Part shown: piece by piece, positions 2,632-20,394 of the stretch
How positions within the stretch are numbered: the first letter of the stretch is position 1
How the letters are laid out: every line of letters begins with the position of its first letter
Source of the DNA: a virus
DNA length: 21,556 nt
Direction: 5' to 3' (one strand)
IMG/VR virus record: IMGVR_UViG_3300017967_004276
Location: 1 to 21,556 of that record
Program-made: the position numbers and the translations under genes
Notes under the pieces: model-generated
What the model was told of the DNA's origin: nothing
What the model saw: only the letters and a program-made list of their open reading frames with translations
Databases searched by the model: none

Positions 2632-3264
2632 TTAAGCCTGATAAGATCCTTCGTATTTTAACAATATAGTTGCTGGTAAAGGATACGCAGTTCCGTCTTG
2701 TCTTACACGATATTTGATTTTTACAATATGAATTACATCAGTATCTTGTACTGTAAACGAGCTAGGAAAGTTGTTATCTTTCAATAAAGCATAGTCGCCA
2801 TTAGTGGAAAATGACACAGTTCTTTGAGTTCCGTCGCCACGTAACTCGATTTCAAATTCTTGTAAATTTCCGTAACCTTGATCGTTGCCGGTATTTTGTG
2901 TTGGAAAATTGTTTACATTAAAGGCAAATGTTACATCACTTACAATTTTAAATGTTTGGTAATCTCCATTTCTCCAGTTAAGTTCTACATTGGCTGTAGC
3001 ATTAGTACCTGGATTCAAAATACTTTTATGTGTTGCTTTACTAATAGTATTACTTACAATCTTACCGTTAAAGTCACCGCCGTCTGTAATACTACTTACA
3101 TCTATTCCAGCAGTTTTATTCTGTAGTGCGGTAATTTCAGTACCGGTTGTTGTTAGAGCGGTTTTGATATAGTTAAAATTATCTCTAAAACCCTGTGTGT
3201 CGTTATCCTGTCCTGCGACTGGATACGTTTCATCAATTGGTGTTGCGTTTACATTACTTGTCAT
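2632..3264 (-). CDS. Structural (fibre or baseplate-associated) protein with shared N-terminal module
   Basis: A 210-residue virion-type protein. The N-terminus, DETYPVAGQDNDTQGFRDNF followed by NYIKTAL (about 11-37), is a diverged copy of the module that opens other proteins in this block (NDGTGDxLRxxFxKVNxNF). A short helix, TTTGTEITALQNKT, follows and may start a trimeric coiled coil. The rest is beta-rich and ends with VIHIVKIKYRVRQDG and ILLKYEGSYQA. It contains no enzymatic motif. The start has a GGAGAAAAAG ribosome-binding site and shares TAATG with the stop of the 854-residue gene upstream. A GATAAATATC late-promoter-like site lies 33 bases before the start, inside the upstream gene's end, so it may also be transcribed on its own. 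A virion role is inferred from module sharing and position. Confidence 0.78.
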   Translation of the reverse strand: MTSNVNATPIDETYPVAGQDNDTQGFRDNFNYIKTALTTTGTEITALQNKTAGIDVSSITDGGDFNGKIVSNTISKATHKSILNPGTNATANVELNWRNGDYQTFKIVSDVTFAFNVNNFPTQNTGNDQGYGNLQEFEIELRGDGTQRTVSFSTNGDYALLKDNNFPSSFTVQDTDVIHIVKIKYRVRQDGTAYPLPATILLKYEGSYQA

Positions 3265-5828
3265 TATACTTTTTCTCCACTTTGCGGAAATGCAAGATAT
3301 TTATCACCTGCTACGCTGTCTATATTATCGATCTGATATCTATCTACAACAAAGTCGATTATCTTGAAATCAAAGCCGCTGTTTTTTATATTTAATATTA
3401 TATCGTCTGCTGACCCTGGTTTACAGAAGCAAATTGGCATAGCACTTACAAATCCAGGCTCTACAAAACTATCTTCTTGTATACTACGCATCCATAATGG
3501 CAAGAATGTGCGATCTCTTTTACCAATACCTTTTATACGACTGCGCATATTTTTAATGCTATTTGGATAAATTCTTTGATGATCACGATCACTTGCTAAC
3601 AATAGGTTTTCGTCAACACTAATTTTGTCAGAACTTATTCTGACAGGACTGTTAATTTTGTCTGGTAAATTTATTAGATTACTGATAGACTTTCCATTTT
3701 TTTCAAGATCGTCGATTATGTCAACATAAACAACTTCATATTCTACTTCTTGAGTGGTTTGATTTTTTCCTAATGCTTTTCTAATTGATCCAAATTTTAA
3801 TCTTTTATTATAGTGATTTCTTGTCATAGCGTTTACAAATGTATAAGCATCTTTTGATTCAATGCCAGCATACATTAACATTTTTAATTCGTTTTGAACT
3901 CCGAATGCTGGGTCGCCATATCTATATATTTTAGTAGGATCAAAAACACTAATGTCATTTATAAAGTTATTAAATTTAACTCTTTTGCTTTGTTTTTGTA
4001 ATACTCTAAAAAACAAATTACTGTAACTAGTATCAGCGGCACTGTCAATAGTAATTTGGAAAGTTTTTGAACTTTCTGTATAATTGAAAATATCTCTAGC
4101 CGCTACTACAAATGTATATGTTCTGTCAAAGGAAGTTAATGCGCTATCATATGTTGTTGTAGTAAAATCTAAAGCACTGCTTCCATCGTTATTGTAAAAT
4201 CTAGTAATACCATTAAGTTCAGGAGTTCCTATTTGATTTACCTTGCCAACAATTTCACCAGATGTAATTAGTGTAAGCCCTGGAGGTAATTCTCCTGATT
4301 CTAAAATGAATACTGTTGTTCCACCTCTTAGTTTACTGATAGCTTCAACATAGAATGTACTATCAATGTTTGGAGCAATGCTTCCAAGATTAGCATCAGA
4401 GATCCATTCGATACCACTTTCAATTTCACCTATTATTTTTATATTAAATGTTCTTGGTGTACTTGCTTTTACTTCACCGTTGTAAATTGCTTTCGCTGTA
4501 ATTGTAAATTTGTATTCTTCGGTCACTCTAGGCTGATATGGAATTTGTCCTGTAAGTTCTCCATTGAGTGTATCAACAGTAAGACCTGGAGGTAGTTCGC
4601 TAACATCGCCAATAATTATTTCTACATCTTTACTAATTTTTTCTACAAGTTGAGGATCTAAATGAATTCTAAATTGTCTTTTTGCTTCATTTAAAGTTTC
4701 TACTCGGTTAATAGTATATGTTCCTAGTGTGCTATCTGTAAAATCGTAGACATCTTTAATAGCAACTTTTTGATTTCTTTTAGGCATTGTCCAGTTGCCC
4801 TTGGCATCTGTTTCAACTTCAATATCCAAATAATTTCTATCAATTAAACTAATAGCAATAGTTTTAGCATTAATTTGTGGATTAACTGTTTCGAATTGAT
4901 ATGTTATTAGCCCTTCAAGTGTTGGAGGATCGTACACATCTAAGAAAACAGTAACATAATTATTTGCTCTTTTTATTCCTAAATCTGGATCAGTAATCCA
5001 AACAGGATTTCTATAATGTGTATTGTCAGCACGGAACACACCAGTGGCTACTTGCATGATTGTGTTATCTGACTTTAGAAAACTTTCGCTTACAACAAAT
5101 ATTTGGAAAGTCCTACGGATTTCATGAATGCCATCTGTTGCCGCAATGGTAAATTGATAATAACGAGTTAGTCTTCTAGGAAAATTAGTTTCTTCAAAAT
5201 AATCAAATGTTGCTCCGTCAAAGTCAAAAGTATCAAAACCACTTGCTGGTCTTGTTCCAAGATCGTAAGGATCGGTATCGTATAAATTTAAATCAAAGTT
5301 ACCACTAACAATTTTGTATTCTAAACTAAAAATAGGATCAGTGAATCCGCTAATTCTTCCAGTTTTGGATAAACTTAAACCAGGTGGTAATGTACCACCG
5401 TTAAAAGGAATGTAATATTCAATTGTATCGCCGGCTGGAATATCAGGATCTAACACTTGAAGTTGAAAGTCAACTCTATCGTTATCTAAAACAAAATAAG
5501 TATCATTAGGACCTACAGGTAATAAACCTTCTGGAGTAGCCCATGTAGGTTCGTCTGCGCCAAGAACTGTGATACTAAATGTTCTATCGCCTATGTCATT
5601 AGCATCTTTTGCTCTGACTACAAATCTACTTGTTGTTGATTTTGCTACTTCTAAAGGAGTTCCGACTATGCGTTTTTCTTCAACTCGAAGACCTCTCGGA
5701 ATGCTTCCAGAAATTATTTCAATGGTATAATCACCTAGATCAGAACTTACATCTAGAAGTATGTTCTGAACTTCTCTCTCATTAATAGTTCCTAATGAGC
5801 CTGATGGAATATTCCATGTGATTGCCAT
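3264..5828 (-). CDS. Large structural protein with Ig-like (He_PIG-type) repeats
   Basis: An 854-residue beta-rich protein built from Ig/cadherin-like repeats. The He_PIG signature LPPGLxLxxxGxIxG is seen at about residues 40 (IPRGLRVEEKRIVGTP), 148 (LPPGLSLSKTGRISG), 411 (LPPGLTVDTLNGELTGQIP) and 511 (LPPGLTLITSGEIVG). Each is followed by a strand such as TRYYQFTIAATDGI, EYKFTITAKAIYNG or TYTFVVAARDIFNY. After about residue 650 the repeats end and a distinct C-terminal region follows, with DRTFLPLWMRSIQ, SAMPICFCKPGSADD and DFKIIDFVVDRYQID. This kind of C-terminus recurs in large structural proteins of marine T4-like phages. No signal peptide or catalytic motif is seen. It begins 12 bases after the 468-residue fibre gene and overlaps the next gene by TAATG. 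It probably forms an extended virion appendage that binds carbohydrate or protein on the host. Confidence 0.8.
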   Translation of the reverse strand: MAITWNIPSGSLGTINEREVQNILLDVSSDLGDYTIEIISGSIPRGLRVEEKRIVGTPLEVAKSTTSRFVVRAKDANDIGDRTFSITVLGADEPTWATPEGLLPVGPNDTYFVLDNDRVDFQLQVLDPDIPAGDTIEYYIPFNGGTLPPGLSLSKTGRISGFTDPIFSLEYKIVSGNFDLNLYDTDPYDLGTRPASGFDTFDFDGATFDYFEETNFPRRLTRYYQFTIAATDGIHEIRRTFQIFVVSESFLKSDNTIMQVATGVFRADNTHYRNPVWITDPDLGIKRANNYVTVFLDVYDPPTLEGLITYQFETVNPQINAKTIAISLIDRNYLDIEVETDAKGNWTMPKRNQKVAIKDVYDFTDSTLGTYTINRVETLNEAKRQFRIHLDPQLVEKISKDVEIIIGDVSELPPGLTVDTLNGELTGQIPYQPRVTEEYKFTITAKAIYNGEVKASTPRTFNIKIIGEIESGIEWISDANLGSIAPNIDSTFYVEAISKLRGGTTVFILESGELPPGLTLITSGEIVGKVNQIGTPELNGITRFYNNDGSSALDFTTTTYDSALTSFDRTYTFVVAARDIFNYTESSKTFQITIDSAADTSYSNLFFRVLQKQSKRVKFNNFINDISVFDPTKIYRYGDPAFGVQNELKMLMYAGIESKDAYTFVNAMTRNHYNKRLKFGSIRKALGKNQTTQEVEYEVVYVDIIDDLEKNGKSISNLINLPDKINSPVRISSDKISVDENLLLASDRDHQRIYPNSIKNMRSRIKGIGKRDRTFLPLWMRSIQEDSFVEPGFVSAMPICFCKPGSADDIILNIKNSGFDFKIIDFVVDRYQIDNIDSVAGDKYLAFPQSGEKV
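3298..3305 (-). promoter_or_regulatory. T4-type late-promoter-like octamer GATAAATA
   Basis: The minus strand reads GATAAATA here, one mismatch from the T4 late promoter TATAAATA, and sits 33 bases before the start of the 210-residue structural gene. The ten-base context GATAAATATC is identical to the site before the giant gene (19731-19740). It lies within coding sequence (GDKYL codons of the 854-residue protein), so it could be chance. Confidence 0.4.
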
Positions 5829-7262: not shown

Positions 7263-7940
7263 TTATATTATCGTTCCTAGATCAACATCATTTTCAGATG
7301 GTGCTAGTATATTTCCAAAATCGTAGTCACTTATCTGATAAAGTGCTTGTACCGCATTTTGTGGATTTTGGTCAATAGTCCCAAAATCATTATCAAAAAG
7401 TGCATTAAGTATACTGGTTTGAGTTTTTCCGCCATAACTTCCTACAAAGTTTGTAGCGGTAACGCCACCAGTAATGTTAATTGATCCTGTACCTACAATG
7501 CTTTGACCATTTAAATCTAATGGTCCAGTTAACTGAGCATTAACAAGATCAGCACTAATTGTAATTTGTTTACCTGAAGATTCAACTTGAACGTTTGAAC
7601 CTCCAATTAATGTTAGTGTATCACTTTCTAAAGTAGCAAGTGAATTACCACTGTCAGTTATAATATTCGCAAACGAATTTGCTTGATTTTTACTAACAGT
7701 AATATCATCAGCATTCTGCGTGACTGTGATACCAGTACCAGAAACAATACTTCTAAATTTTAGTAAATTAGCTTGTTTTTCAACAAAACTTTCTGCTCCA
7801 CTACCAAGATTTTGACCCGTAACGGCTAGTTCATTACTTAGTGAAGTAAAGTTTTTGTTTACTTTAGCAAATGCGGTACGTAAATCATCGCCTGTACCAT
7901 CATTTACTAAATTACCAATATTAATTTCTTCGATTGCCAT
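7263..7940 (-). CDS. Fibre-like structural protein with NDGTGD N-terminal module
   Basis: A 225-residue protein that starts with the shared module EINIGNLVNDGTGDDLRTAF followed by AKVNKNFTSLSNEL (about 4-37), nearly the same as the start of the 2454-residue protein. The middle is beta-rich, with phage-fibre phrases such as GTGITVTQNADDITVSKNQA and TLIGGSNVQVESSGKQITIS, then LTGPLDLNGQSIVGTGSINI. The C-terminus, QALYQISDYDFGNILAPSEN and DVDLGTII, is short and acidic. No enzyme motif is present. A TAGGAG ribosome-binding site lies 6 bases before the ATG. A GATAAATA late-promoter-like octamer begins directly after the protease gene's stop, 17 bases before the start. It is probably a short fibre or a connector that docks to the same baseplate partner as the other proteins with this module. 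Confidence 0.8.
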   Translation of the reverse strand: MAIEEINIGNLVNDGTGDDLRTAFAKVNKNFTSLSNELAVTGQNLGSGAESFVEKQANLLKFRSIVSGTGITVTQNADDITVSKNQANSFANIITDSGNSLATLESDTLTLIGGSNVQVESSGKQITISADLVNAQLTGPLDLNGQSIVGTGSINITGGVTATNFVGSYGGKTQTSILNALFDNDFGTIDQNPQNAVQALYQISDYDFGNILAPSENDVDLGTII

Positions 7941-7965: not shown

Positions 7966-10900
7966 CTAACGCCTGATTCGAGGTCTTGGATACGCTACTC
8001 CAGAATTTGGTCTTGCTTTATAATTACGTTTAGGATACGTAGTTCCTTCACTTTTTCTTTGTTGTCTATATCTTAATACAAGATTTGGTGATCCTAAAAG
8101 TGCTTCAATATCTTCATAATTTCCTGACCCAGTGTCACCTAAAGTATTTGGTTCAGCCATTGCTACAATCATATCTCTGGCCTCCTCACAAGTCATGTCA
8201 GGATACGTTTGGCAAAGGCAAGCAATAACACCAGCAACTTGAGGACTGGCCATACTTGTTCCTGAAATTTTTCCAACCCTATAACTTGAGTTTCTTGGAT
8301 CTCCGTACGGGCTAGCCGTTGTGTAAGCACTTTGAATATAAGTTCCAGGTGCCCAAATTGTTATTCCAGGACCTCTATCACTATAATCAGCTGGTTTTTC
8401 TCTAAGCGATGTATAATCTCCCATTGCTCCAACACAAATAGTAGGCAAGTCATAACCGCCAGATGCTGTAGTATCAACTCGAGTCGGCGAAGTTCCTCTC
8501 ATATAATAGTAAGGAAAGTTTACTGAATCAGGATAGCGGTTTGCCATTTCAAATGTATTATCCCAATCCTGATCCCCAGGAGCGGCATGGTACCATTGAC
8601 CATTGCCTGCCGCACCTATGTTGATAATTCCTTCGTCAATAGCATCTTCAACATCTGCGTCTAGAGCATCGACAGGAACAGGTATTCGTTTACCAGATAT
8701 AAATCCCCAGTCATTAAGTTGTTCTGTTGTAAATGGCACAATATCTGAAGTAACTTGATTGTTTTGTTCTATAGTTACTCTGAAATTTTCTGGATTGTCT
8801 TCGTCAAATCTTACTTCCCAGCGTATACCAGGATCGCCAAGTGTTCCCGAACTTGCCGCATTTCCTTCAAATACAACTCTATAGTATTCTGTGCCTGGAT
8901 TAGAAGACACAATAATTTGGCCATTCATATTGGTATGATTGCTACATTGATAGAAGTAGGTGCCTGCCGCAGTAGGAGTCCAACTTACAGTGTTACCACT
9001 AACGGCACCTTGTCCAGTTGCTCCAGCTACTTGACTACCTGTACCTGTAATTTGAGCTGTTTTGAAATACATAGGATGAACAAAGTTTGAATTGTTTGTG
9101 ATTTCTAAAGTGTCGCCTACTAGTATATTAATAGTTGCGTTATCTCCACTAACTGCTCCATTACGATCAGTACCGTTACTTAATGAAAATGCTATGTTAC
9201 TGTTGTTAACAGCATCAATAGTATAAGTGTTTACAGGTGTAGCATAATTCCCTGTTGGTTCAGTTCCATAATAAATTCTTTGACAGCTTGTATCCGGAGC
9301 GTTACCACCAAATCGTTCTCCACTTCCTATCATAATTTTAGCATAAGGAACATTATTTGGAGAAATGTTAGGTTCAGTAGTTGAACCACCACCAAATGTA
9401 ATATAACTATTTGTTCCTACATTAATTTGAGTATAATCAGTACTAAACATAGTAAAAGTAAATGGTAAGTTTAGTGTCCAGTAACCGTCATCATTATCTC
9501 CTGTAGTAGGACTAGTTAAAGAATTTAATCCTGCTACAGAATCAATACTAACATTTGCCTCTCCAGTTGCTCCCCTTGTAGCAGTAGCTGCAGGAGTTGA
9601 GTCTTGAGTAACATTAAGGGTAACATCAATGTTAGTATCAAAGGTACAGTTAGGATTAGGTTCAGTGCCGTAATTTGTAGTAATGTTTATAGTATATGTT
9701 CCATCTTTTTGTACAGTAAATTGTTCATCGATTGTAGCGGTTACTGAAGCACCAGTATATATACCATCAGTGTATGTTGCCACAACCACATTATCTGGAT
9801 CTCTAATTTCAACTTCGATATCTAAATCAACAGTACCTGTAGGTGTAGCATAAGTTATTTCTTGGAATACGTCTACAGTAAAGTTTCCGTATCTTGTACC
9901 ACCTTGTGGTAGAGTTTGTACATAAACTGTGTTAGTAGTAGCTGATTTTAATGTATCATTAAGGAAAGCTCTAGTGCCACCTGAAACAGTCCATCCACCT
10001 CCACCAATAAGTCCTCCCGTTGGAGAAGGATTTAATGTACCTTCTGTATTACCAGGGTTCGGAGTTCCTGAAGTTGTACAGGCAAATTGTACCCAATCGT
10101 CTTTTGCTCCGTCGCCTATGTTATATCTAAAACTGGCTAAATCTGAGGAATTGTCTGCGCTGTATATTCCTGAAAACCCTGTAGGAGTTCCCGTGCCTGA
10201 AGTTGCTGTATATCTAGTTCCTCTATATGTAACTGCGGTAATATCATTAAAGGTCCATTCTGATGGAAAAATACTCATCCCCCAACTGCTGTTCACCACT
10301 GTAGGATTTTTTATACCGGTATCTGGATTAACAGATTTTGTTCTATGAAACTCTCTTACATAATCGTATACGTACGGAAAGTTAGTGTTTCCGACGTCGC
10401 CAGCGTAATAGTAAATGTTATATAGATTAGCATCTCTGGCCCAACCTTGTGTATTACCACCTGCTGTTCCCATTACGTGTAAAGCATGGTAGTTACCGGA
10501 AGTATACTGTCCATATGTATAAGTACTACCTGCTACGCCTCCAACTTCATTGTTATATAAAGCATACCAGTCGATTAAGTTTACTCTAGAACCTCCAGTC
10601 CCGTCAACATTAACAGCATATTCTGGGTGACCTGTTGCTTGTCCATCAGCATCCATAATAACTATGTCTACATTCTTACCAGTTTCTGTTAGTGTAATTG
10701 TTTGCGTATTATCACCACTCCAATCATTGTGAACTCCACCTTCGACACATCTAAGCAAACCCCAATTTTTATGATTACTATTTTGTACTGACTCTCTATT
10801 GAAATTTGAAGTTTGTGTTATGACATGACTTGAAATAGATACACCCATTTCTGAAGGATGAGGTTGTACAGCTCTTACATCAGGATGTAGTTTTAAACTA

Positions 10901-11094
10901 ACTGCTTCCTTTCTAGTTAGATAATAAGATGTAGATCTGCTCTTCGGACGTTCTTGATCTATCATAACAGGTCTAGTGATTACAGTATTGGTAGGTGTAG
11001 TATCTGCTGTTGTTAATTCTTCGTGAATACGAAGCATGCCTTCCATATTTTTAGCAGTTACAATGTAACGTCTTTGTGTAACGTCTCTAGCCAT
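7966..11094 (-). CDS. Subtilisin-like (S8) serine protease with large insertion holding a cupredoxin-like domain
   Basis: A 1042-residue protein with a complete S8 protease split by a long insertion. Residues 8-80 look like an I9-type propeptide (RRYIVTAKNMEGMLRIHEEL; LTRKEAVSLKLHPDVRAVQP). Catalytic Asp148 is in DIVIMDADG, His203 in NYHALHVMGTAGG and Ser947 in GKISGTSMASPQVAG; the oxyanion Asn831 is in NIGAAGNGQW. Between VVNSSWGMS (267-274) and EDAIDEGIINIGAAGNG (816-832) lie about 540 extra beta-rich residues. These include a cupredoxin-like unit at about 650-732 with the copper-site pattern His673, Cys717, His720, Met723. The C-terminus is basic (KRNYKARPNSGVAYPRPRIR). No classical signal peptide is seen. 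The ribosome-binding site TAGAGG is 9 bases upstream. It lies in the middle of the fibre genes, so it is likely a virion-associated or maturation protease; its target is unknown. Confidence 0.88.
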   Translation of the reverse strand: MARDVTQRRYIVTAKNMEGMLRIHEELTTADTTPTNTVITRPVMIDQERPKSRSTSYYLTRKEAVSLKLHPDVRAVQPHPSEMGVSISSHVITQTSNFNRESVQNSNHKNWGLLRCVEGGVHNDWSGDNTQTITLTETGKNVDIVIMDADGQATGHPEYAVNVDGTGGSRVNLIDWYALYNNEVGGVAGSTYTYGQYTSGNYHALHVMGTAGGNTQGWARDANLYNIYYYAGDVGNTNFPYVYDYVREFHRTKSVNPDTGIKNPTVVNSSWGMSIFPSEWTFNDITAVTYRGTRYTATSGTGTPTGFSGIYSADNSSDLASFRYNIGDGAKDDWVQFACTTSGTPNPGNTEGTLNPSPTGGLIGGGGWTVSGGTRAFLNDTLKSATTNTVYVQTLPQGGTRYGNFTVDVFQEITYATPTGTVDLDIEVEIRDPDNVVVATYTDGIYTGASVTATIDEQFTVQKDGTYTINITTNYGTEPNPNCTFDTNIDVTLNVTQDSTPAATATRGATGEANVSIDSVAGLNSLTSPTTGDNDDGYWTLNLPFTFTMFSTDYTQINVGTNSYITFGGGSTTEPNISPNNVPYAKIMIGSGERFGGNAPDTSCQRIYYGTEPTGNYATPVNTYTIDAVNNSNIAFSLSNGTDRNGAVSGDNATINILVGDTLEITNNSNFVHPMYFKTAQITGTGSQVAGATGQGAVSGNTVSWTPTAAGTYFYQCSNHTNMNGQIIVSSNPGTEYYRVVFEGNAASSGTLGDPGIRWEVRFDEDNPENFRVTIEQNNQVTSDIVPFTTEQLNDWGFISGKRIPVPVDALDADVEDAIDEGIINIGAAGNGQWYHAAPGDQDWDNTFEMANRYPDSVNFPYYYMRGTSPTRVDTTASGGYDLPTICVGAMGDYTSLREKPADYSDRGPGITIWAPGTYIQSAYTTASPYGDPRNSSYRVGKISGTSMASPQVAGVIACLCQTYPDMTCEEARDMIVAMAEPNTLGDTGSGNYEDIEALLGSPNLVLRYRQQRKSEGTTYPKRNYKARPNSGVAYPRPRIRR

Positions 11095-11098
11095 GCTA

Positions 11099-12325
11099 TT
11101 ATGCCTCTAACTGAATTAGTGTAAGTGTAACAGTAAATGTTCTTGTGCCGCCTGATTTATTTTTAACTGATATAGGTATTACATCAGTAACAGGACTTTC
11201 ATTATTAAAACCTAGTACAGCCGGACTTATCAATACTGTATCAGCACCTGTTGTAATAGTTTCAACTACCACACCAGCACCTGGAGCTGGATCATCTGTT
11301 TCTAATCTTGAAGCATCTGCGGTTCTACTTGCTTGATCAGTATAAACCCTAACCCATGCCGCGGCATCAACTTGTAATTTTAATACCATGTATCCTTTAA
11401 AGGCTCCTGTGATATTAGTGGTTGCTGTTACTCCGTCGGCAATACTAGATGTTGAAGCTGATTTAGTAGTTCTAGATCCTAATCCAGTACCACCACCGCC
11501 AGCGGCCGCGCCCGGCTGCCATCTTACGTTAGCCGCGTCCCATACAAGAGCTTGTCCGTCTGTTGCTCCTACTTGATCTAATTTATATGTATTGAGTACG
11601 CCATGTAATCCATCAACTAACACACCTGAACTATCTTCAGAATAAACACTACCAGTAACATCACCATCTATATTTCCAATAACGTTACCAACAACACCAC
11701 CAGTGTGTGTACCTTGTGTGTTACCTACAATAGTATTTGAAAAAGTTTTAACTCCGGCAATAGTCTGGTCGCCCGCCGTATACACTCCATTTGTGACTGT
11801 GCCAGCGTTACCACTAACATTACCTGTTACATTTCCTGTAAGATTTCCAACAACGCCTTGGCCTGCCTGTAAAACACCATTAGCATCAATATAAACATCG
11901 CCGCCATCAACTTTAAAGTTAATAATATTTGTTGCTCCATTAGAAGCATCAAAAGTAAAATCATTATTAGCATCATTAATGCTCATGCCGCCTGAGAATG
12001 TTATACTATTTGTAGAAATAGTATTTCCAGTAGCATCAATAATCATTGAACTGTCATCAGCAAAAACTGATCCAGTAACGTCAGCAGTAATACTTCCTAC
12101 ATCAACATTATTTGCGTATATATTATCCCAGCGTTGTGTCGGTGAACCTATGTTATAACTAGCCCCCCACGCTGGTGTAATGTCCTGTGTAAGATTTGTA
12201 AGTATACCAGTTGTTGCTTGTGAGTTTACAAACAGAAAATTATCGTCGACTACCTTTAGTACTTCATTTACTTTGTCCCAGGTTAGTGGGTGATTAGTTG
12301 AATTATATAGAGTTGTTAATGCCAT
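11099..12325 (-). CDS. Tail-fibre protein with C-terminal beta-sandwich domain
   Basis: A 408-residue fibre-like protein. The N-terminus (LTWDKVNEVLKVVDDNFLFV, about 14-33) is a remote version of the docking module in neighbouring proteins. It continues with NIGSPTQRWDNIYANNV, the YxLGSxxxRWxxxY signature common in phage fibres. Two GSVFADDSS/GSVYSEDSS motifs and a beta-helical GNLTGNVTGNVSGN run follow, close to those in the 468-residue fibre. A glycine-rich hinge, PGAAAGGGGTGLGS, separates a C-terminal domain of about 115 residues (FKGYMVLKLQVDAAAWVRVY; ASRTADASRLETDDPAPGAG; VTLTLIQLEA). That domain type recurs in marine phage fibres and is probably the distal binding tip. The start shares TAATG with the giant gene's stop, and GGGGAG provides the ribosome-binding site. 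Confidence 0.82.
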   Translation of the reverse strand: MALTTLYNSTNHPLTWDKVNEVLKVVDDNFLFVNSQATTGILTNLTQDITPAWGASYNIGSPTQRWDNIYANNVDVGSITADVTGSVFADDSSMIIDATGNTISTNSITFSGGMSINDANNDFTFDASNGATNIINFKVDGGDVYIDANGVLQAGQGVVGNLTGNVTGNVSGNAGTVTNGVYTAGDQTIAGVKTFSNTIVGNTQGTHTGGVVGNVIGNIDGDVTGSVYSEDSSGVLVDGLHGVLNTYKLDQVGATDGQALVWDAANVRWQPGAAAGGGGTGLGSRTTKSASTSSIADGVTATTNITGAFKGYMVLKLQVDAAAWVRVYTDQASRTADASRLETDDPAPGAGVVVETITTGADTVLISPAVLGFNNESPVTDVIPISVKNKSGGTRTFTVTLTLIQLEA

Positions 12326-15300
12326 TATAGTCTCCCCACCGCTACTTCAATTGTTCCTATTCGATCACTATCATAAACATCGATAGCTTTACCAATAATT
12401 GTTCCTGGCTTAGCATCTCCGCCTGCGCTTGTAGCAACTCCTGGTATACCACTAGCAATAATAAGATCTCCTTTTTCAATTTTTCCTACTACCTTACAAG
12501 GTACTCTACCTTGTAGTGCTACTAGAACTTTTTTGCCTTGACAATCAGAATTCATAATGTAAGCGGCTTCAGTACTTACTACACCGGCAACTTTATGTGT
12601 TCCTAATTCTCCGGACAATGTAACTTCTTTATCGCCCCCGAATTGAACAACTGTTCCTGGTTCGTATGTCTTATCACCCTCATAATACTCTGCCAAGTCA
12701 GCCCAAGTAGCTTGCATTCTACTACCTGCTGTTAATTGCCAGTTACCTTCAATGTAACCAATTGCTGATGTATTACCATTTTCTGCTGTAAGTGTTCCGC
12801 CGGAACCTACTTCAACTCTACCAGAACTACCTCCAGCAGTTCTAAATTTGTGTACACCTGCTCGATATTCAGTAAAGTGATTAGCGGCAACGTTACTAAA
12901 CTGTGCCTTAATAGCAACTTCACCATTACCGTTTCTGTAGTTAACATAGTAAGCATTGTCAGCTGAACTTTGTTCGTGTTTTGTAATTACAGGTGTAGTC
13001 GAAGTTTGGTAAGTCATCCATATACCTTCTAGGTCTGAAGGATTACCACTTTCAACACCATCACTTACATTAATTGTAATATTACCATCTGCAGTAATAT
13101 TTTCAAAATTAGATGTACCAGCAAAGTCTGCGCTACCAGTTCCACTTCTTTGTACAATAGTATTTGCTGTGTTAGAACTAGTAAATTCAATAGTAGCAAA
13201 ATCAGCGGCTGTATTACCTGTTCCGATTCTAGCCATAACACCAATGTCGCCAAAGTCAGGACGTCTACATCCTAAACCATCTTCAACAATAGTTTTAGCA
13301 TCAATTGGAACAGGTGGTCCGTCGATAGATTGACCTATTCCTCCTGGATTAGATCTTCTAGCAAGAACTTTTGTATTAGAGCCAACTGCTAAGTTTGTGT
13401 TATCAGTAACATCTATAACTGCTACATCAATATGTCTTAGTTTTTCAAAACCAATACCATCATAGTAAGCGCCTGATCTTGTTGCGTTGGTAGAATCTTT
13501 TAATGCTAAGAATCCATTAACAAGGGTAAATTCTAATGTTTGAGCACCACTAATAATTCCGTAGTGTCTTATTTTACCACCTGTAATTGTTCCGCCTGTT
13601 GATGTATCAGCTGGAATTCTAAATGTATTTGCTGTGATGTTGGTTGCTTTCCAGTCACCATTGATTGCTGTAACAACAGTTTCTTCTGAAATTACAACAG
13701 CATCACCTTCGCTCATTCCATGGTTTTCAGATGTTGTAATTGTAGTATAGTCATCACCAGCACCTGGAGCAGATTCTGCTGTGTATACATAACTTGCGAT
13801 TCCAATACCTTCAAACTCTGTTGCTCTAGCAGTATTAAGATCTAATTTATGCTGTTCAATACCAGCATCATAATTAACATCTGCGTTGACAATAACGTTA
13901 TCGTTAATTGTAGCAACAATTTGAGGATCAGGATAGTTAGTTACAGTTGGTGATACAACATCAGCAACGCCTGGAGCATTTTGTTGGAATGTAAATGTTA
14001 ACGCTCCTACAACTGTTGCGTTTGAAAATTCACTTGAACCATTGGTTGTAAATGCTAATATGTCAGCACTTTCAATATAACTGTAATCTGGTTGTCTATT
14101 GTTATTTGGATCTACTGGATTGGCTTCATACATCCATCCTTCCGGAGCGTCTTGTAAGTTACCAATCTTCATGTATGCTTTTCTAATAGCATCACCTTCA
14201 CCTTCAATTCCTACATCAGGATCTGGCAAACCTCTAACAAAATTATTACTCATATCAATCGGTCCAGTCATCTGACGTGAACCATCACGCGGTAAGTATC
14301 CTGGTCCAATTAATACTGTTTGAATTCCACCTTCGTGTGTTAAACCTAAACGTCTATCAATATAAGCTCTAACAGCCGCTTCGGTTGGTACTGCTTGGTT
14401 ACTTGCTTCACCAGCACCACCCAGTGTAACGTCACCGGTAAATTCACTAATTGTTTCACCAGCGGCAAGTCTTAAACTTGTAATACCTTGTAAGTCGATC
14501 TTAGCATCAAGTGTAACTTTACCAGTACCTTGGTCAACAGCAAAGAATTCACCAACTCTAAAGTTACCTGACTGATCTGATGATACCCAGAACACACGCC
14601 CTGTACCTTCTTCAACTGCTTCGTTTGATTGTAGAGGATTGTTGTTAGGTGGACCAAAAATGTTTGATGGATAGTTAGTATCAGCATAAGATCCTGTACC
14701 AATGGATAAGAAGTCATGTCCTGTTGCTCTCATAGTTGAGATGTTAACAGTAACTTGTCCTTGTGCTCCAGCTCTAATACCTGCTTTAAGTTGTAGATTT
14801 TCTAGAGAAGCACTAAAGTCTGATGTAGCACCGCCAAATAGTTCAACAGTACCTGAAGTTGCCGCGGCACCAAATCCGCTACCGTCTGCTTTTGTTGTTA
14901 AGTCTTTATCAGTGTAAAGAACAAATGTGTTCGTTGTAATATCACCAGCAAAATATAAGCCATCAAATGAAGCATTGTCAGCACCAGTAATTCTAATCTG
15001 TCTACCAGTACGTAAATCAAGTGTTCCTGATACTGTAACAGTAATAGTACTAGCCGCTGTTGCGCCTGTGATTGTATAACTTCTATTAACTAAAGTTTCG
15101 TTTGAATCTGTAATATTTTTAAATGATACTAGACCGTAACTTCCAATTTTGTTTCCAAAACCGTCTAATAGATCTACATCTTTATAATCAGTTACTTCAT
15201 ATAAAGCATCTTGATAACCGAATATCATACCACCTGTGGAAGTACTACTTCCATCATAGATAGCATATCCTGTTGTTTGTTTTGTTAAACGTGCAGCCTG

Positions 15301-18300
15301 TTCTGGTTCAACTGTTTGAACAGTGATAGCATCATCACCAATACCATTGGCATAACTTGGTGGTGTAAATGTTGGATCTGCTTTTTTAAGGTTTAGGTTA
15401 ACGTATGGAAAACCGTCTTTTGTTGTAATGTTCTGATCACCATCTTGAGCATCTAGTCCATTAAATCCATTAAATGATAATACTCTGATAACAGCATCGT
15501 CAATACCTGAGCTTTCGTCAAATACTAATGCTGTCGAAGGTCGTGTACTAACAACTTGAATTTTATCAGTAATTGTAAACTCTTCAAAAGCTCTAACAAT
15601 AACTTTTTTACCTGCTGGAACATCTGCGGCCAGTCCGCCACCTGTAACATCTGTATCGATACTACATTCGTAAGTTCCACTTGGTAGTCCACTAGTTGAA
15701 ATTGCTGAAATTTTATAAGCTCTAAAACCAGTTATTGAATTTGGACCTGTTCTTTGAGGATCATTTGAGTGATCAACTTCAATAAAACATCCTGGGAATG
15801 GAGGATAAGCAACATCGTTGATGTAAATTTTTGCTATAGTTTTATCGTTAACTACATCTACGGGTCTATCTTCGTATACAGATGCTGTTTGAATTAAAGG
15901 AAATTTAAGTCCAATTCTATCTGGAACTTCGTTTGGATCAGCACCATTTGATCTTAAACCGTAAACACCATGTGCTGACGATCCGTTAAGCGATCTAATT
16001 TGAGCACCATTTAAGGCAAAGTAAGCAGTATGACAGTAGTATGTAAACATGGACACTGATTCAACAAGTCCGTTGTTCATAGCAAACACACCATAACCCA
16101 TATCGTTAACTTGTGTAAAGTCATTACCTAGCATTGACTTATTACCTGGTGTAGCAAGTGTAACTTTACCAGCAGTCATTTGCTCATATGGATTATCTAG
16201 AACACATTCATATAACGGATATAAAACAGGCACACCAGTTGAATCACCGAACGAAGCATAAGTTTCGCCCGGAGCTGCATCATCGCCAGCAATAAGTGTT
16301 TTCATATAACCTATTGATGTGTTGATAGCTTCTGTAATACCAGCATCGACTAGATCTTGTGCTGTTAATGTTGTGTCTTGTGTTACATCCCATTGGAAAC
16401 TATGAGAAGTTCCTGTACCAAGACCAGTAAAGTCAATTTCAAATTCTGATCCTGGATCTCTTTCTTGAGCTCTTACAAGTTCGATTGAGTTGTATAATTT
16501 AAAATTGTCAGCATCGACTCTAAATGTAAAGTAAACTCCGCCGTTGGTAAGAGTTCCTCCACCAGCAAGATCTAATGAATCTGCTCCCCCGTTGCTGTAT
16601 ATTATACGTGATCCTGTATTAAATCCATGATTTGTAATAGTAAATGTATTTGAAGTTACATCTAAAACAAGATTCGGATCAAATGTTTGACCGATGAACA
16701 CACCTGAAGGTGCTGTGTTGTTTAGAATTTCGCCTATTCTAGTTTTAATGTGTTGAACAGCGTCAAGTGTCGCTGGCAATTGATTAACTGTTTGTGGATC
16801 CCCGCTCGAAGGAATAAGTTTTTTACCTGCTCGGTAGTAACTGTAACCTGCTCTAATAGAGTTATTAAAGTTACCTTGATTTAAATCACTAACACCTGCG
16901 TTAGGAGCATTACCGAATAAGTCAATACTTAAAGCATCAACAATATATCCTGAATCTCTAAAACAAATATCTACATTATAATCTAAGTTAGGATAGTTTA
17001 CAGCAAGGAATCCAATTACATCTGCTTGAATAAATTCTTTGTTTTCTTGCAATAGTTTTTTAGCAACATACATTTTCTCACCGTAGCGGATAATGTTTGC
17101 TACAATATCAAAACAGTTTTGAACTTCTTGTTGAGCTCCACCTTGCTCTGCGTTTGTAATTGATGCTATTTTAGTTTGTGCTATAGTTCCTAATGCTGGC
17201 CAAGTGTTTTGTTGTACACAAGTAATTGCGATGTCTCTCGCTTTTTCAATTGCGGCCGCTGTTGCTGTTACTTGTCCAGCAACAACTGTGAGTCCACCTG
17301 AGAAGTATAGTCTACCTGCTCTTGTTGATTCTTCGTAACCGCCAAATAATACATCATTAACTGCGGCATCAACAATCAGTCCAACGTCTCTTCTACACTT
17401 ATCTTCATTAAATGTAAAACCTAAGTTCTGTGTAGCAAGCCATTGTATTGTTTCTTCTTGTATGAAAGACCTATTCTGTTCAATTAATACTTTAGCATCA
17501 AAGAAAGCAGATTCAATTCTATTTGTTAATGTAATTCTATAAATATCTTCGCCGATATTAAATGAAGTTGGAAGTTGTGGCTCTCGTTGTAGACCACCAA
17601 TTACAATTTTATTATCATCTCCGCCTTGTGGATTGCGTGTTAATTCTCCAGTTTCGCCTGACTTATAAAGTAGGATACCATCTAGGTTACCCATGAATCC
17701 GTCAACAAATTGTCCACCAGCAAAGTTTTTAACGTTAATACTTTTAGCAAATGATGAACCTGTTTGACAATAAGGTGATTTAGAATTAATCTGATTGTTT
17801 GGATCTAGTACCATCATAAATCCGCCGTGTCCTTGAACACTAACATTTCTTACAATAGTAGCATCAGCACATAAGAAAACATCCATTTCATCATTTTTCT
17901 TAGGTTGACTTGAGAAGTCTAAAGGATCTGTTAGGTATTGATAACCAAATTCATAATCAGTAACTCTTAATCCGTCAATAACAGGATCTCTTCTAAAAAA
18001 TACTCTACTCCATGGAGATTCTGATACTCCTAATTTTGGTCTTAGAATTGTACGTCTGAATTCATCACCTCTTAATGATACGTTTGGTGATAATCTAATT
18101 GGAAAATGTTCGTAGTAGATGCCAGTTTCTACTTGGATTGTAATCTGAATGTTCTGAGCAGGATCACCGTACTGAATTACTTCACCTATTTGGAAAGATC
18201 CTTGTAATAATTCAACTTCAAAAATTTCTCTACCTGAAGCATCACGTTCGGCAGAGTGTGAGATAATTTTAGCAACAGCATCTGAATCAATACCTCTAAG

Positions 18301-19689
18301 TAATTGTCCTTCTCTTAGATCATCTGTAAAGTCAGTTCCTAAATTTTCAGTTTCAAGTAACATTCTTGGCAAGAATATATCAACTGTAGGAATCGCTGTG
18401 TATCCTGTACCCTTTCTAACAATAGTAATTTCTTTAATTTCGCCCGCGATTTCAACAGTACTTGCTTCAGCACCACTACCATTGCCACCACCATTAAAGA
18501 TAACAGAAGCACTACCGTAATCTGCGCCAGAAGCAGTAACTAAAATTCTGTTTACACTAAAAGTAATACTAAATTTAGCAGTACCACTACCTGTTACAGC
18601 AGAAACGTGTCCTACATTTGTAATATCTGTAGGTAAAGCACTAAAGATACCCGGTTCAACAATAGCAACTTGTGTAATAGAACCAGCAAAGTCTTTTGCT
18701 ACAACCCTTAAAACAGCCGGAGATACAACATTACCACCTGTTAGTGTAAGTTCTGTTCCTATTTCATAATCAGTACCGCCATTAACAATCTGAATAGTTT
18801 GAGTTTCGTCAAGCTGCATTTCAACAGTACCAGTAGCACCATTGCCTGATAATGGAGATTGAATTAAATCTTCAAGTGTACAATCTTTAGTACCATTTTC
18901 GTATGTTAGTGTCTTTTGATATGGTCCTAGTTCTACAGGAGCCGCATTAACAAGTTCTTCAGCTACTTGTGCGGCTTTCGATACAGTTCTAAATGCTGTA
19001 GAAGGTGAACGTCCTATTTGGTTTGTTGGAATATCTGTTCTTTCATCTTGTCCGTTTGTAGCAACATAGAGGTTATTTGCTGACAAAAATGTTTTACTAT
19101 CAACGTATGCTTTAGTAGAAGCAATTAAACCGCCATAGTTTACATCATCTGAGTCAATTGGGTTTCTTGATAAAATCAAAGGACCAGTCATTGTGCCCCA
19201 ATCTGGCTCAATATTACCGGTTTCGTCAATAGCATCAACACCTGCTAATGAAATTTTAGTATCTACATAACCTTTATTAGGGGCATCTGAATCTAATTGT
19301 GCGTCAGCAATGTTAGTAAGTCTTTTATTGTTACCATCTAAATCCGCGGCAAGTGTCGGATCTGGGTCATTAATAAGCGCAGAAGCAAGTGAGCTAAATT
19401 TAATTACGCCCGGAACGCTTGAATCAATAACAATAGTATCGTTACTGTCTAATTTTGTAAATTGTATCTTTTCGTTGTTTGAGTCAACTGTAAGGATTTT
19501 GTTGTTATCTTCTGTTCTATAACTGTTTTGTGCTACATCATCTAAGCCAATAAAACTTAGTGCGCCACCTAAACCTAGTACAGCATATAACTCACCGAAG
19601 TTATCGTTTACCTTACTAAACGAATCGCGAATACTATCGCCGGTACCGTCATTTCCTTCAATACCGATATTAATTTCTTTTCTTGCCAT
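12325..19689 (-). CDS. Giant multidomain virion protein (fibre/adhesin-like, beta-helix and processing-type C-terminus)
   Basis: A 2454-residue protein. The N-terminus carries the docking module KEINIGIEGNDGTGDSIRDS FSKVNDNF split over residues 4-31, then fibre motifs PNKGYVDTKI and STKAYVDSKTF (about 140-200). Residues 300-430 hold GxGY-type beta repeats (GGTDYEIG, ASGADYGS, RKGTGYTAIP). A pectin-lyase-like beta-helix starts near 515 (VETGIYYEHFPIRLSPNVSL). Two copies of a helical repeat lie at about 727-797 (NRSFIQEETIQWL) and 873-957 (NKEFIQADVIGFL). A second beta-helical part (about 1193-1253) and a conserved block with STMRATGHDFLSIGTGSYAD (about 1650-1690) follow. The C-terminus from about 2326 (WADLAEYYEGDKTYEPGTVV) resembles the peptidase-G2-like self-processing domain of phage appendages. 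Its start has GGAG and a late-promoter-like site 43 bases upstream. It is probably a long host-contact appendage. Exact identity is unknown. Confidence 0.83.
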   Translation of the reverse strand: MARKEINIGIEGNDGTGDSIRDSFSKVNDNFGELYAVLGLGGALSFIGLDDVAQNSYRTEDNNKILTVDSNNEKIQFTKLDSNDTIVIDSSVPGVIKFSSLASALINDPDPTLAADLDGNNKRLTNIADAQLDSDAPNKGYVDTKISLAGVDAIDETGNIEPDWGTMTGPLILSRNPIDSDDVNYGGLIASTKAYVDSKTFLSANNLYVATNGQDERTDIPTNQIGRSPSTAFRTVSKAAQVAEELVNAAPVELGPYQKTLTYENGTKDCTLEDLIQSPLSGNGATGTVEMQLDETQTIQIVNGGTDYEIGTELTLTGGNVVSPAVLRVVAKDFAGSITQVAIVEPGIFSALPTDITNVGHVSAVTGSGTAKFSITFSVNRILVTASGADYGSASVIFNGGGNGSGAEASTVEIAGEIKEITIVRKGTGYTAIPTVDIFLPRMLLETENLGTDFTDDLREGQLLRGIDSDAVAKIISHSAERDASGREIFEVELLQGSFQIGEVIQYGDPAQNIQITIQVETGIYYEHFPIRLSPNVSLRGDEFRRTILRPKLGVSESPWSRVFFRRDPVIDGLRVTDYEFGYQYLTDPLDFSSQPKKNDEMDVFLCADATIVRNVSVQGHGGFMMVLDPNNQINSKSPYCQTGSSFAKSINVKNFAGGQFVDGFMGNLDGILLYKSGETGELTRNPQGGDDNKIVIGGLQREPQLPTSFNIGEDIYRITLTNRIESAFFDAKVLIEQNRSFIQEETIQWLATQNLGFTFNEDKCRRDVGLIVDAAVNDVLFGGYEESTRAGRLYFSGGLTVVAGQVTATAAAIEKARDIAITCVQQNTWPALGTIAQTKIASITNAEQGGAQQEVQNCFDIVANIIRYGEKMYVAKKLLQENKEFIQADVIGFLAVNYPNLDYNVDICFRDSGYIVDALSIDLFGNAPNAGVSDLNQGNFNNSIRAGYSYYRAGKKLIPSSGDPQTVNQLPATLDAVQHIKTRIGEILNNTAPSGVFIGQTFDPNLVLDVTSNTFTITNHGFNTGSRIIYSNGGADSLDLAGGGTLTNGGVYFTFRVDADNFKLYNSIELVRAQERDPGSEFEIDFTGLGTGTSHSFQWDVTQDTTLTAQDLVDAGITEAINTSIGYMKTLIAGDDAAPGETYASFGDSTGVPVLYPLYECVLDNPYEQMTAGKVTLATPGNKSMLGNDFTQVNDMGYGVFAMNNGLVESVSMFTYYCHTAYFALNGAQIRSLNGSSAHGVYGLRSNGADPNEVPDRIGLKFPLIQTASVYEDRPVDVVNDKTIAKIYINDVAYPPFPGCFIEVDHSNDPQRTGPNSITGFRAYKISAISTSGLPSGTYECSIDTDVTGGGLAADVPAGKKVIVRAFEEFTITDKIQVVSTRPSTALVFDESSGIDDAVIRVLSFNGFNGLDAQDGDQNITTKDGFPYVNLNLKKADPTFTPPSYANGIGDDAITVQTVEPEQAARLTKQTTGYAIYDGSSTSTGGMIFGYQDALYEVTDYKDVDLLDGFGNKIGSYGLVSFKNITDSNETLVNRSYTITGATAASTITVTVSGTLDLRTGRQIRITGADNASFDGLYFAGDITTNTFVLYTDKDLTTKADGSGFGAAATSGTVELFGGATSDFSASLENLQLKAGIRAGAQGQVTVNISTMRATGHDFLSIGTGSYADTNYPSNIFGPPNNNPLQSNEAVEEGTGRVFWVSSDQSGNFRVGEFFAVDQGTGKVTLDAKIDLQGITSLRLAAGETISEFTGDVTLGGAGEASNQAVPTEAAVRAYIDRRLGLTHEGGIQTVLIGPGYLPRDGSRQMTGPIDMSNNFVRGLPDPDVGIEGEGDAIRKAYMKIGNLQDAPEGWMYEANPVDPNNNRQPDYSYIESADILAFTTNGSSEFSNATVVGALTFTFQQNAPGVADVVSPTVTNYPDPQIVATINDNVIVNADVNYDAGIEQHKLDLNTARATEFEGIGIASYVYTAESAPGAGDDYTTITTSENHGMSEGDAVVISEETVVTAINGDWKATNITANTFRIPADTSTGGTITGGKIRHYGIISGAQTLEFTLVNGFLALKDSTNATRSGAYYDGIGFEKLRHIDVAVIDVTDNTNLAVGSNTKVLARRSNPGGIGQSIDGPPVPIDAKTIVEDGLGCRRPDFGDIGVMARIGTGNTAADFATIEFTSSNTANTIVQRSGTGSADFAGTSNFENITADGNITINVSDGVESGNPSDLEGIWMTYQTSTTPVITKHEQSSADNAYYVNYRNGNGEVAIKAQFSNVAANHFTEYRAGVHKFRTAGGSSGRVEVGSGGTLTAENGNTSAIGYIEGNWQLTAGSRMQATWADLAEYYEGDKTYEPGTVVQFGGDKEVTLSGELGTHKVAGVVSTEAAYIMNSDCQGKKVLVALQGRVPCKVVGKIEKGDLIIASGIPGVATSAGGDAKPGTIIGKAIDVYDSDRIGTIEVAVGRL

Positions 19690-19773: not shown

Positions 19774-20061
19774 ATGTTCATACGAGAATACATTCTTAAA
19801 AAACTGTACGAAAGACGCAGTAAACACGGTAAAGTACATCAATACTATAGAGATGTTGCTATGGTTGTATTGAGATGTGATAATTGCGATGCTGACTTTG
19901 AAAGATCACGTAGTAAAATGGATTATAGGCGTATGAGCAACAACTATTTTCATGTATGCTCTGACTGTGATGCTAAAAGATTTGCTCAAAGAAAGGGTGT
20001 AGAGCGTAAAAAAATATGGGATATGCCAGCTAGTAGTGATTTACCCGTTAGTAAATACTGA
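19774..20061 (+). CDS. Small zinc-ribbon-type protein, unknown function
   Basis: A 95-residue basic protein on the opposite strand to nearly everything else. Two CxxC pairs, C35/C38 (RCDNCDADF) and C62/C65 (VCSDCDAKRF), would bind one zinc ion as a ribbon or treble-clef. The N-terminus is strongly basic and helical (REYILKKLYERRSKHGKVHQ), and a KRFAQRKGVERKKIWDMP stretch follows the second pair. HNH nuclease residues are not evident, so nucleic-acid binding is more likely than cleavage. Similar small proteins occur in marine T4-like phages without assigned function. No convincing ribosome-binding site precedes the ATG; the start is kept because the N-terminus looks protein-like. It diverges from the giant gene and its end overlaps the IscA-like gene tail to tail by 21 bases. 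Antisense reading of the overlap may affect both genes. Confidence 0.72.
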   Translation: MFIREYILKKLYERRSKHGKVHQYYRDVAMVVLRCDNCDADFERSRSKMDYRRMSNNYFHVCSDCDAKRFAQRKGVERKKIWDMPASSDLPVSKY

Positions 20062-20394
20062 ATCATCAAAATTTACACTAACACCACAACCGCATGACGA
20101 CTTAGCATTAGGGTTTTGAATATCAAACATAGCACCCATTATGTCTTTTTTATAATCTATTGTAGATCCAAACAAAAACATTATGCTTTGACCCCCAATA
20201 ATTAACTTTCCACTGCCACATTCAATAACTTCAACTTCTTCTTTGATCGAATCTTGTGTGTCAACAAGCCCCCAATCATATTCAAATCCAGCACAGCCAC
20301 CGCCTTTTATGTTTAAAGATACGGCATAACTGTTATGGTCTTCACAAAGTTTGTTTATTTGATCTTTTCCGGCTTGTGTTACATTACAAATCAT
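20041..20394 (-). CDS. A-type iron-sulphur cluster carrier (IscA/ErpA/HesB-like)
   Basis: A 117-residue A-type carrier that holds and delivers Fe-S clusters to target enzymes. All three ligand cysteines are present: C34 in NIKGGGCAGFEYDWG (family pattern SGCSGFxY) and C101 and C103 in SSCGCGVSVNF (family CGCGxSF). The length agrees with bacterial IscA (about 107). The segment between them, GKLIIGGQSIMFLFGSTIDY, fits the beta core. HesB/IscA-like genes are known in marine T4-like phages, where they may support Fe-S enzymes of host or phage during infection. Its start overlaps the upstream 55-residue gene by 11 bases and its end overlaps the zinc-ribbon gene from the other strand. The client protein cannot be deduced from this window. 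Confidence 0.88.
   Translation of the reverse strand: MICNVTQAGKDQINKLCEDHNSYAVSLNIKGGGCAGFEYDWGLVDTQDSIKEEVEVIECGSGKLIIGGQSIMFLFGSTIDYKKDIMGAMFDIQNPNAKSSCGCGVSVNFDDSVFTNG

Follow-up and report, generated by a model that had tools for sequence, protein, structure and literature searches.

A cupredoxin domain with a predicted type-1-like copper site is grafted into a phage subtilisin-like protease and recurs in marine phage tail and baseplate proteins

The described proteins most similar to the domain reported here are cupredoxins. Amicyanin (PDB 1aac and 4p5r) has the same ligand order and the same tight C-x2-H-x2-M loop. It places an Asn after the ligand His and works in the context of methylamine dehydrogenase, whereas the present domain has His-Pro, lacks that context and is part of a phage structural-type protein. 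Plastocyanin, a soluble photosynthetic carrier in which Asn usually follows the ligand His, is built as the same sandwich; our domain is not such a carrier, has Pro at that position and shows a shorter His-Met spacing (two residues rather than four). The petE genes of cyanophages are a separate matter from a grafted domain of this kind. By fold, the closest structures in the PDB are the cupredoxin domains of rusticyanin, copper nitrite reductases and two-domain laccases. In multicopper oxidases, Pro follows the type-1 His, as it follows the first ligand His here, but nitrite reductases and laccases differ from the domain, which has neither catalytic or trinuclear copper ligands nor a fused reductase or oxidase domain. 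Cupredoxins of marine Bacteroidota belong to the same family, with identities of at most ~50% and a complete ligand set in 13 of the 14 clusters, and differ in being cellular, exported proteins.

Relatives of the carrier protein are also on record. The subtilases of the cyanophages S-H9-1, S-CAM4, S-H38 and S-CREM1 share the protease family and the baseplate or tail-fibre setting of the subtilase studied here. Those of the cultured phages S-H9-1 and S-CAM4 are S8 proteases with a C-terminal cupredoxin, whereas ours is inserted, and those of S-H38 and S-CREM1 have no cupredoxin at all. Iron (HxH) sites occur in phage tail fibres (PMC11705849) and offer a parallel, a metal site in a receptor-facing protein as predicted here, with a different metal, different ligands and a different fold. 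Cupredoxins, phage subtilases and iron sites in phage tails are thus known already; their combination, the spread of the module and its repeated grafting appear undescribed in the open-access literature searched. That literature, which takes in only a minority of subscription journals and preprints, yielded no report of phage particles that carry a cupredoxin, plastocyanin or copper module, and no relevant paper on the subtilisins of cyanophages or marine phages.

The window is the whole 21,556-nucleotide (21.5-kb) viral record IMGVR_UViG_3300017967_004276, and all features described below lie on its minus strand. Positions 7966..11094 encode a 1042-residue protein that is an S8 subtilase, and a putative protease, by its Pfam match (Peptidase_S8, 64 bits against a cut-off of 21.8) and its D-H-N-S motifs. 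Putative catalytic Asp148 (IMDADGQ, 10651..10653), putative catalytic His203 (HALHVMG, 10486..10488) and putative oxyanion-hole Asn831 (AAGN, 8602..8604) are invariant in an eight-member family alignment, and putative catalytic Ser947 (8254..8256) is assigned from its GTSMASP motif. Ahead of the catalytic domain lies an alpha/beta segment (residues 1-80, 10855..11094) that is probably an inhibitor-I9-like prodomain. This segment is locally confident in a full-length AlphaFold model of the 1042 residues, which drew on eight aligned sequences, has a pLDDT of 39 and was used for the N-terminal segment only. The original prediction had read His673, Cys717, His720 and Met723 in this frame and set a cupredoxin-like module between the catalytic His and the catalytic Ser; the frame and the four residues are as claimed, and the module does fall between His203 and Ser947. 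In one related protease ORF, unrelated sequence follows beyond approximately residue 880, reflecting either a chimeric assembly or a real fusion.

The module is a true cupredoxin domain, folded as a Greek-key beta-sandwich by prediction. Copper-bind (PF00127, Pfam) matches at 28.7 bits with the domain alone and at 24 bits with the whole protein (cut-off 21.2). Phmmer searches of the PDB with the domain as query give E-values from 5e-5 to 3e-4, among them plastocyanin at 5e-5 and amicyanin at 2e-4, and a profile of 62 relatives reaches a best E of 1.5e-7 in a PDB profile search. The amicyanin model TIGR02657 is the best NCBIfam match (E 2e-7, 31.1 bits against a cut-off of 110.2, not passed), and the plastocyanin model TIGR02656 also matches (E 1.5e-6, 28.5 bits against a cut-off of 87.85, not passed); because the scores lie far under these cut-offs, the domain is neither an amicyanin nor a plastocyanin as such. 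The sandwich proposed from the sequence was obtained when the structure of residues 618-735 was predicted: with 62 aligned sequences, AlphaFold returned nine strands at a pLDDT of 96.3 and a pTM of 0.90. Foldseek places rusticyanin, the cupredoxin domains of nitrite reductases, amicyanin and two-domain laccases at the top of its matches (E from 9e-6), and all of the best PDB structure matches are cupredoxins. VIA comparisons of the model give Z 11.3 with 2dv6 (rmsd 2.8, 99 aligned) and Z 9.6 with 2cal (rmsd 2.5, 98 aligned). Of the limits first suggested, approximately residues 650-732, the end stands, while the start moves to about residue 621 so as to take in two N-terminal strands that are part of the domain. 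Residues 621-732 (approximate limits; 8899..9234) are covered by the Pfam, PDB and NCBIfam matches and the predicted fold, and the window holds no second cupredoxin copy. A host photosynthesis gene (petE) was considered and rejected, the domain being no separate gene and falling under the NCBIfam plastocyanin cut-off, and a plain Ig-like domain was rejected on fold and ligand evidence.

Within this sandwich, a predicted type-1-like site formed by His673 (9076..9078), Cys717 (8944..8946), His720 (8935..8937) and, as axial ligand, Met723 (8926..8928) most likely holds one copper ion. In sequence alignments with PDB relatives, each of the four residues falls on a known ligand position, which bears out the plastocyanin-like H-C-H-M set originally proposed. 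His673, with Pro674 behind it, aligns with the ligand His of plastocyanin and amicyanin, and the C-x2-H-x2-M spacing is that of amicyanin. Cys717, the only Cys of the domain, closes a predicted strand; the loop behind it contains His720 and Met723, and Met723 is directly followed by the last strand, so the order of strands around Cys717-Met723 is the same as in known type-1 sites.

All four predicted ligands are invariant in the 62 aligned sequences, a set recruited in part with a pattern that includes the Cys. Because of this bias, copies were also recruited with a DNA pattern taken from the N-terminal part only, which is blind to the Cys, the second His and the Met. Among the 72 complete unique copies found in this way, 56 have all four ligands, eight have the first His only, with the domain cut off ahead of the hairpin, and eight have no ligand; Cys-His-Met without the first His occurs in 0 of the 72. 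When viral and bacterial sequences are grouped at 62% identity, 59 of 70 clusters show H-C-H-M and four show H-C-H-Q. The remaining seven have lost the Cys and the second His jointly, six of them together with the first His. For this coincidence of losses p is ~1e-9 when the clusters are treated as independent, although in fact they are related. A site lost in part would have been recruited more readily than one lost entirely, so the lack of partial losses is not an artefact of the search. As judged from these sequences, the ligands behave as a unit, with loss that is all-or-none and not piecemeal. Ligand-free copies do exist, and the fold is therefore able to serve without copper. The Pro after the first ligand His is present in 63 of the 70 clusters.

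Several variants were observed alongside these counts. Gln is the axial ligand of stellacyanins, and a stellacyanin-like replacement of the axial Met by Gln (CHFHTGQG) is found in the last domain copies of four loci. Three loci encode tandem cupredoxins whose second copy is without the Cys and the second His, and in two of the three the first copy retains all four ligands. Half-cupredoxins, in which the strands through the first His are present and the Cys-His-Met hairpin is absent, occur in six phage proteins that are apparently subtilases, with two such halves per locus in two cases.

The nesting of the cupredoxin in the protease, as first described, is real, but it goes one level deeper: an accessory beta insert of the protease carries the cupredoxin in one of its loops. 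The grafted segment, residues ~613-734 (8893..9258), is missing from cupredoxin-less relatives. An alignment of nine carriers against 12 such relatives reveals a clean insertion of ~120 residues, and the uninterrupted junction reads ...QRIYYGVEG/TAPNRTYRVRIEGN... in the relatives. Lengths agree: in the closest protease family, cupredoxin-less members are mostly ~880-930 residues long and full-length carriers ~990-1047, while the S-H38 (550 aa) and S-CREM1 (559 aa) relatives are too short to contain the accessory beta insert. A scan of viral contigs that used only the protease part recovered 70 unique S8 ORFs in its 80 best loci, and 11 of these 70 have the cupredoxin. Grafts at this loop come in two sequence types, one with a DRNGxVSG start, to which the window's copy belongs, and one with none. 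In a protease tree built after removal of every alignment column with <55% of rows filled, a filter that also took out the insert, the carrier label needs at least five changes, three of them forced by well-supported branches. A domain tree, built on a short alignment, rejects a single origin of all grafts at the loop (AU p 0.017). The graft has been gained or lost repeatedly at one loop. Other phage subtilases have the module elsewhere, either N-terminal and tandem, between other protease segments, or C-terminal.

The original prediction called a copper-site module in a virion protease unusual; the module is not confined to this protease and is widespread in tail and baseplate proteins of marine T4-like phages and in marine Bacteroidota. 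A protein search matched 38 phage records (Prochlorococcus and Synechococcus phages and marine single-cell viruses), and 442 stretches of viral contigs encode a relative. Among further cultured phages, the module flanks the protease on both sides in P-HM1_104, is part of a collagen-like fibre in P-SSM2 and occurs in a podovirus protein in P-SCSP2. A structure library of viral proteins contains the same fold in proximal tail fibres, in baseplate-wedge tail-fibre connectors and in other S8 peptidases. Matches in cellular genomes are nearly all from marine Bacteroidota, as small lipoproteins or as C-terminal domains of exported proteins. Eight of the Bacteroidota proteins are only ~130-150 residues long and consist of the cupredoxin, a signal or lipoprotein-like N-terminus and little more. 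No fusion of the domain to a subtilase was found in the examined loci, except one that is probably a phage contig. This contig, titled as a gammaproteobacterial metagenome-assembled genome (MAG), is phage-like, encodes an S8 protease with a cupredoxin and is probably misbinned. A second phage-like contig, under a euryarchaeal MAG title and also probably misbinned, encodes several cupredoxins in one long protein.

The genes around the subtilase point to the tail. On one side lies a 225-residue protein with the N-terminus of a baseplate-wedge or tail-fibre connector (7263..7940; phrog_677 and phrog_958), and on the other a 2454-residue fibre-like protein with a T4 gp9/10-like N-terminus (12325..19689; T4_gp9_10_N at 25.4 bits against a cut-off of 25, and PHROG tail-fibre families). 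An adhesin-like protein of 854 residues with Ig-like (He_PIG) domain matches is encoded at 3264-5828. The same phage fragment encodes an iron-sulphur cluster assembly protein (IscA/HesB-like, 20041-20394), as well as a 161-residue ORF (1910-2395), near GroES-like and MazG-like genes, whose match is limited to a fragment of DNA polymerase III alpha. In cultured cyanophages, S8 proteases are set among baseplate or tail-fibre genes, and the S-H38 and S-CREM1 relatives stand between tail-pin and baseplate-wedge genes. The label of virion protease given in the original prediction fits this context and these relatives, from which the subtilase of the window is most likely a baseplate or tail-fibre component. 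Another protein with the module has been detected in virions: published mass spectrometry of purified particles identified the baseplate wedge protein S-SZBM1_206 from nine peptides (24.9% coverage of the full-length protein; PMC9146016, Table 1). The C-terminal 91 residues of S-SZBM1_206 are the cupredoxin module, with the four ligands present.

The explanation we hold to be best, with somewhat better than even confidence, is that the domain serves the virion as a mobile accessory module: a grafted cupredoxin with a type-1-like copper site and a role in anchoring or stiffening, both the binding and the role being inferred. Under this explanation, the cupredoxin would have been grafted into an exposed loop of the accessory beta region of a subtilase that sits in the baseplate or tail-fibre apparatus, as one example of a mobile unit with which marine T4-like phages equip their receptor-facing proteins. 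One copper ion would be taken up at or after lysis, and the metal would lock the sandwich into a rigid accessory domain that may help the protease or fibre to sit on the host surface. The adhesion part of this proposal is a guess from placement. The free placement of the module around the protease and its presence on non-enzymatic fibres argue for a general accessory role, and the all-or-none pattern of the ligands argues for a working metal site.

Anchoring or stiffening appears preferable to electron transfer. A redox module, cycling between Cu(I) and Cu(II) to sense or exchange electrons at the host surface and perhaps to gate the protease, would account for the retention of the full type-1 ligand set as a unit, for electron-transfer proteins being the nearest solved folds and for the standalone lipoprotein or secreted forms in marine Bacteroidota. 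It seems quite unlikely, however, because no recognisable redox partner adjoins the module, which also occurs on a collagen-like fibre and on enzyme-free baseplate proteins, and because its many unrelated positions around the protease are ill-suited to a fine-tuned electron path or gate. The module may instead be a pure scaffold, a stable beta-sandwich used in the manner of the Ig-like domains of phage tails, whose ligands would be a legacy of a bacterial cupredoxin and would bind no metal in the virion. The seven site-less clusters, which keep the family resemblance, the half-domains and the free shuffling of the module all speak for this, yet we consider it unlikely: the four ligands, an unpaired Cys among them, match the best-conserved structural residues in conservation, their loss is all-or-none where drift would leave sites lost in part, and the one axial substitution that recurs, Gln, is itself a known type-1 ligand.

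Metal capture or mimicry, in which the site would load copper, or some other soft metal, and either be recognised by a host metal-uptake system or compete there as a copper 'Ferrojan horse', suits a marine setting and a module on receptor-facing proteins, and has a precedent in the iron sites of phage tail fibres (PMC11705849). The metal of a type-1 site is buried and tightly bound, which makes such a site a poor match for delivery or recognition, and this reading is improbable. Hardly any credence is left for a chance motif on a different fold, unrelated to cupredoxins. Beta-rich, low-complexity phage proteins are able to yield weak matches, but here Pfam, NCBIfam, the PDB profile search and a high-confidence fold are concordant, and we regard chance as refuted by the predicted fold and the profile search unless the model is wrong.

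Beyond the preferred explanation of a mobile accessory module lies a broader proposal, possible but doubtful at present, in which marine T4-like phages follow a general 'copper module' strategy. Copper-loaded cupredoxins would have been grafted repeatedly onto tail proteases, fibres and baseplate proteins, a large share of marine virions would be copper proteins, and the state of the metal would affect attachment or protease action. A natural comparison exists within the family, between proteases that have the module and those that do not, between the two module types at one loop and with ligand-free copies, which makes the role of the site testable. The domain would also give a structural name to regions of marine phage proteins that are now annotated as hypothetical, Ig-like or tail fibre. 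If the site binds copper, marine virions would represent an overlooked class of copper proteins, comparable to iron in phage tail fibres, with a bearing on host attachment and on the trace-metal chemistry of the ocean.
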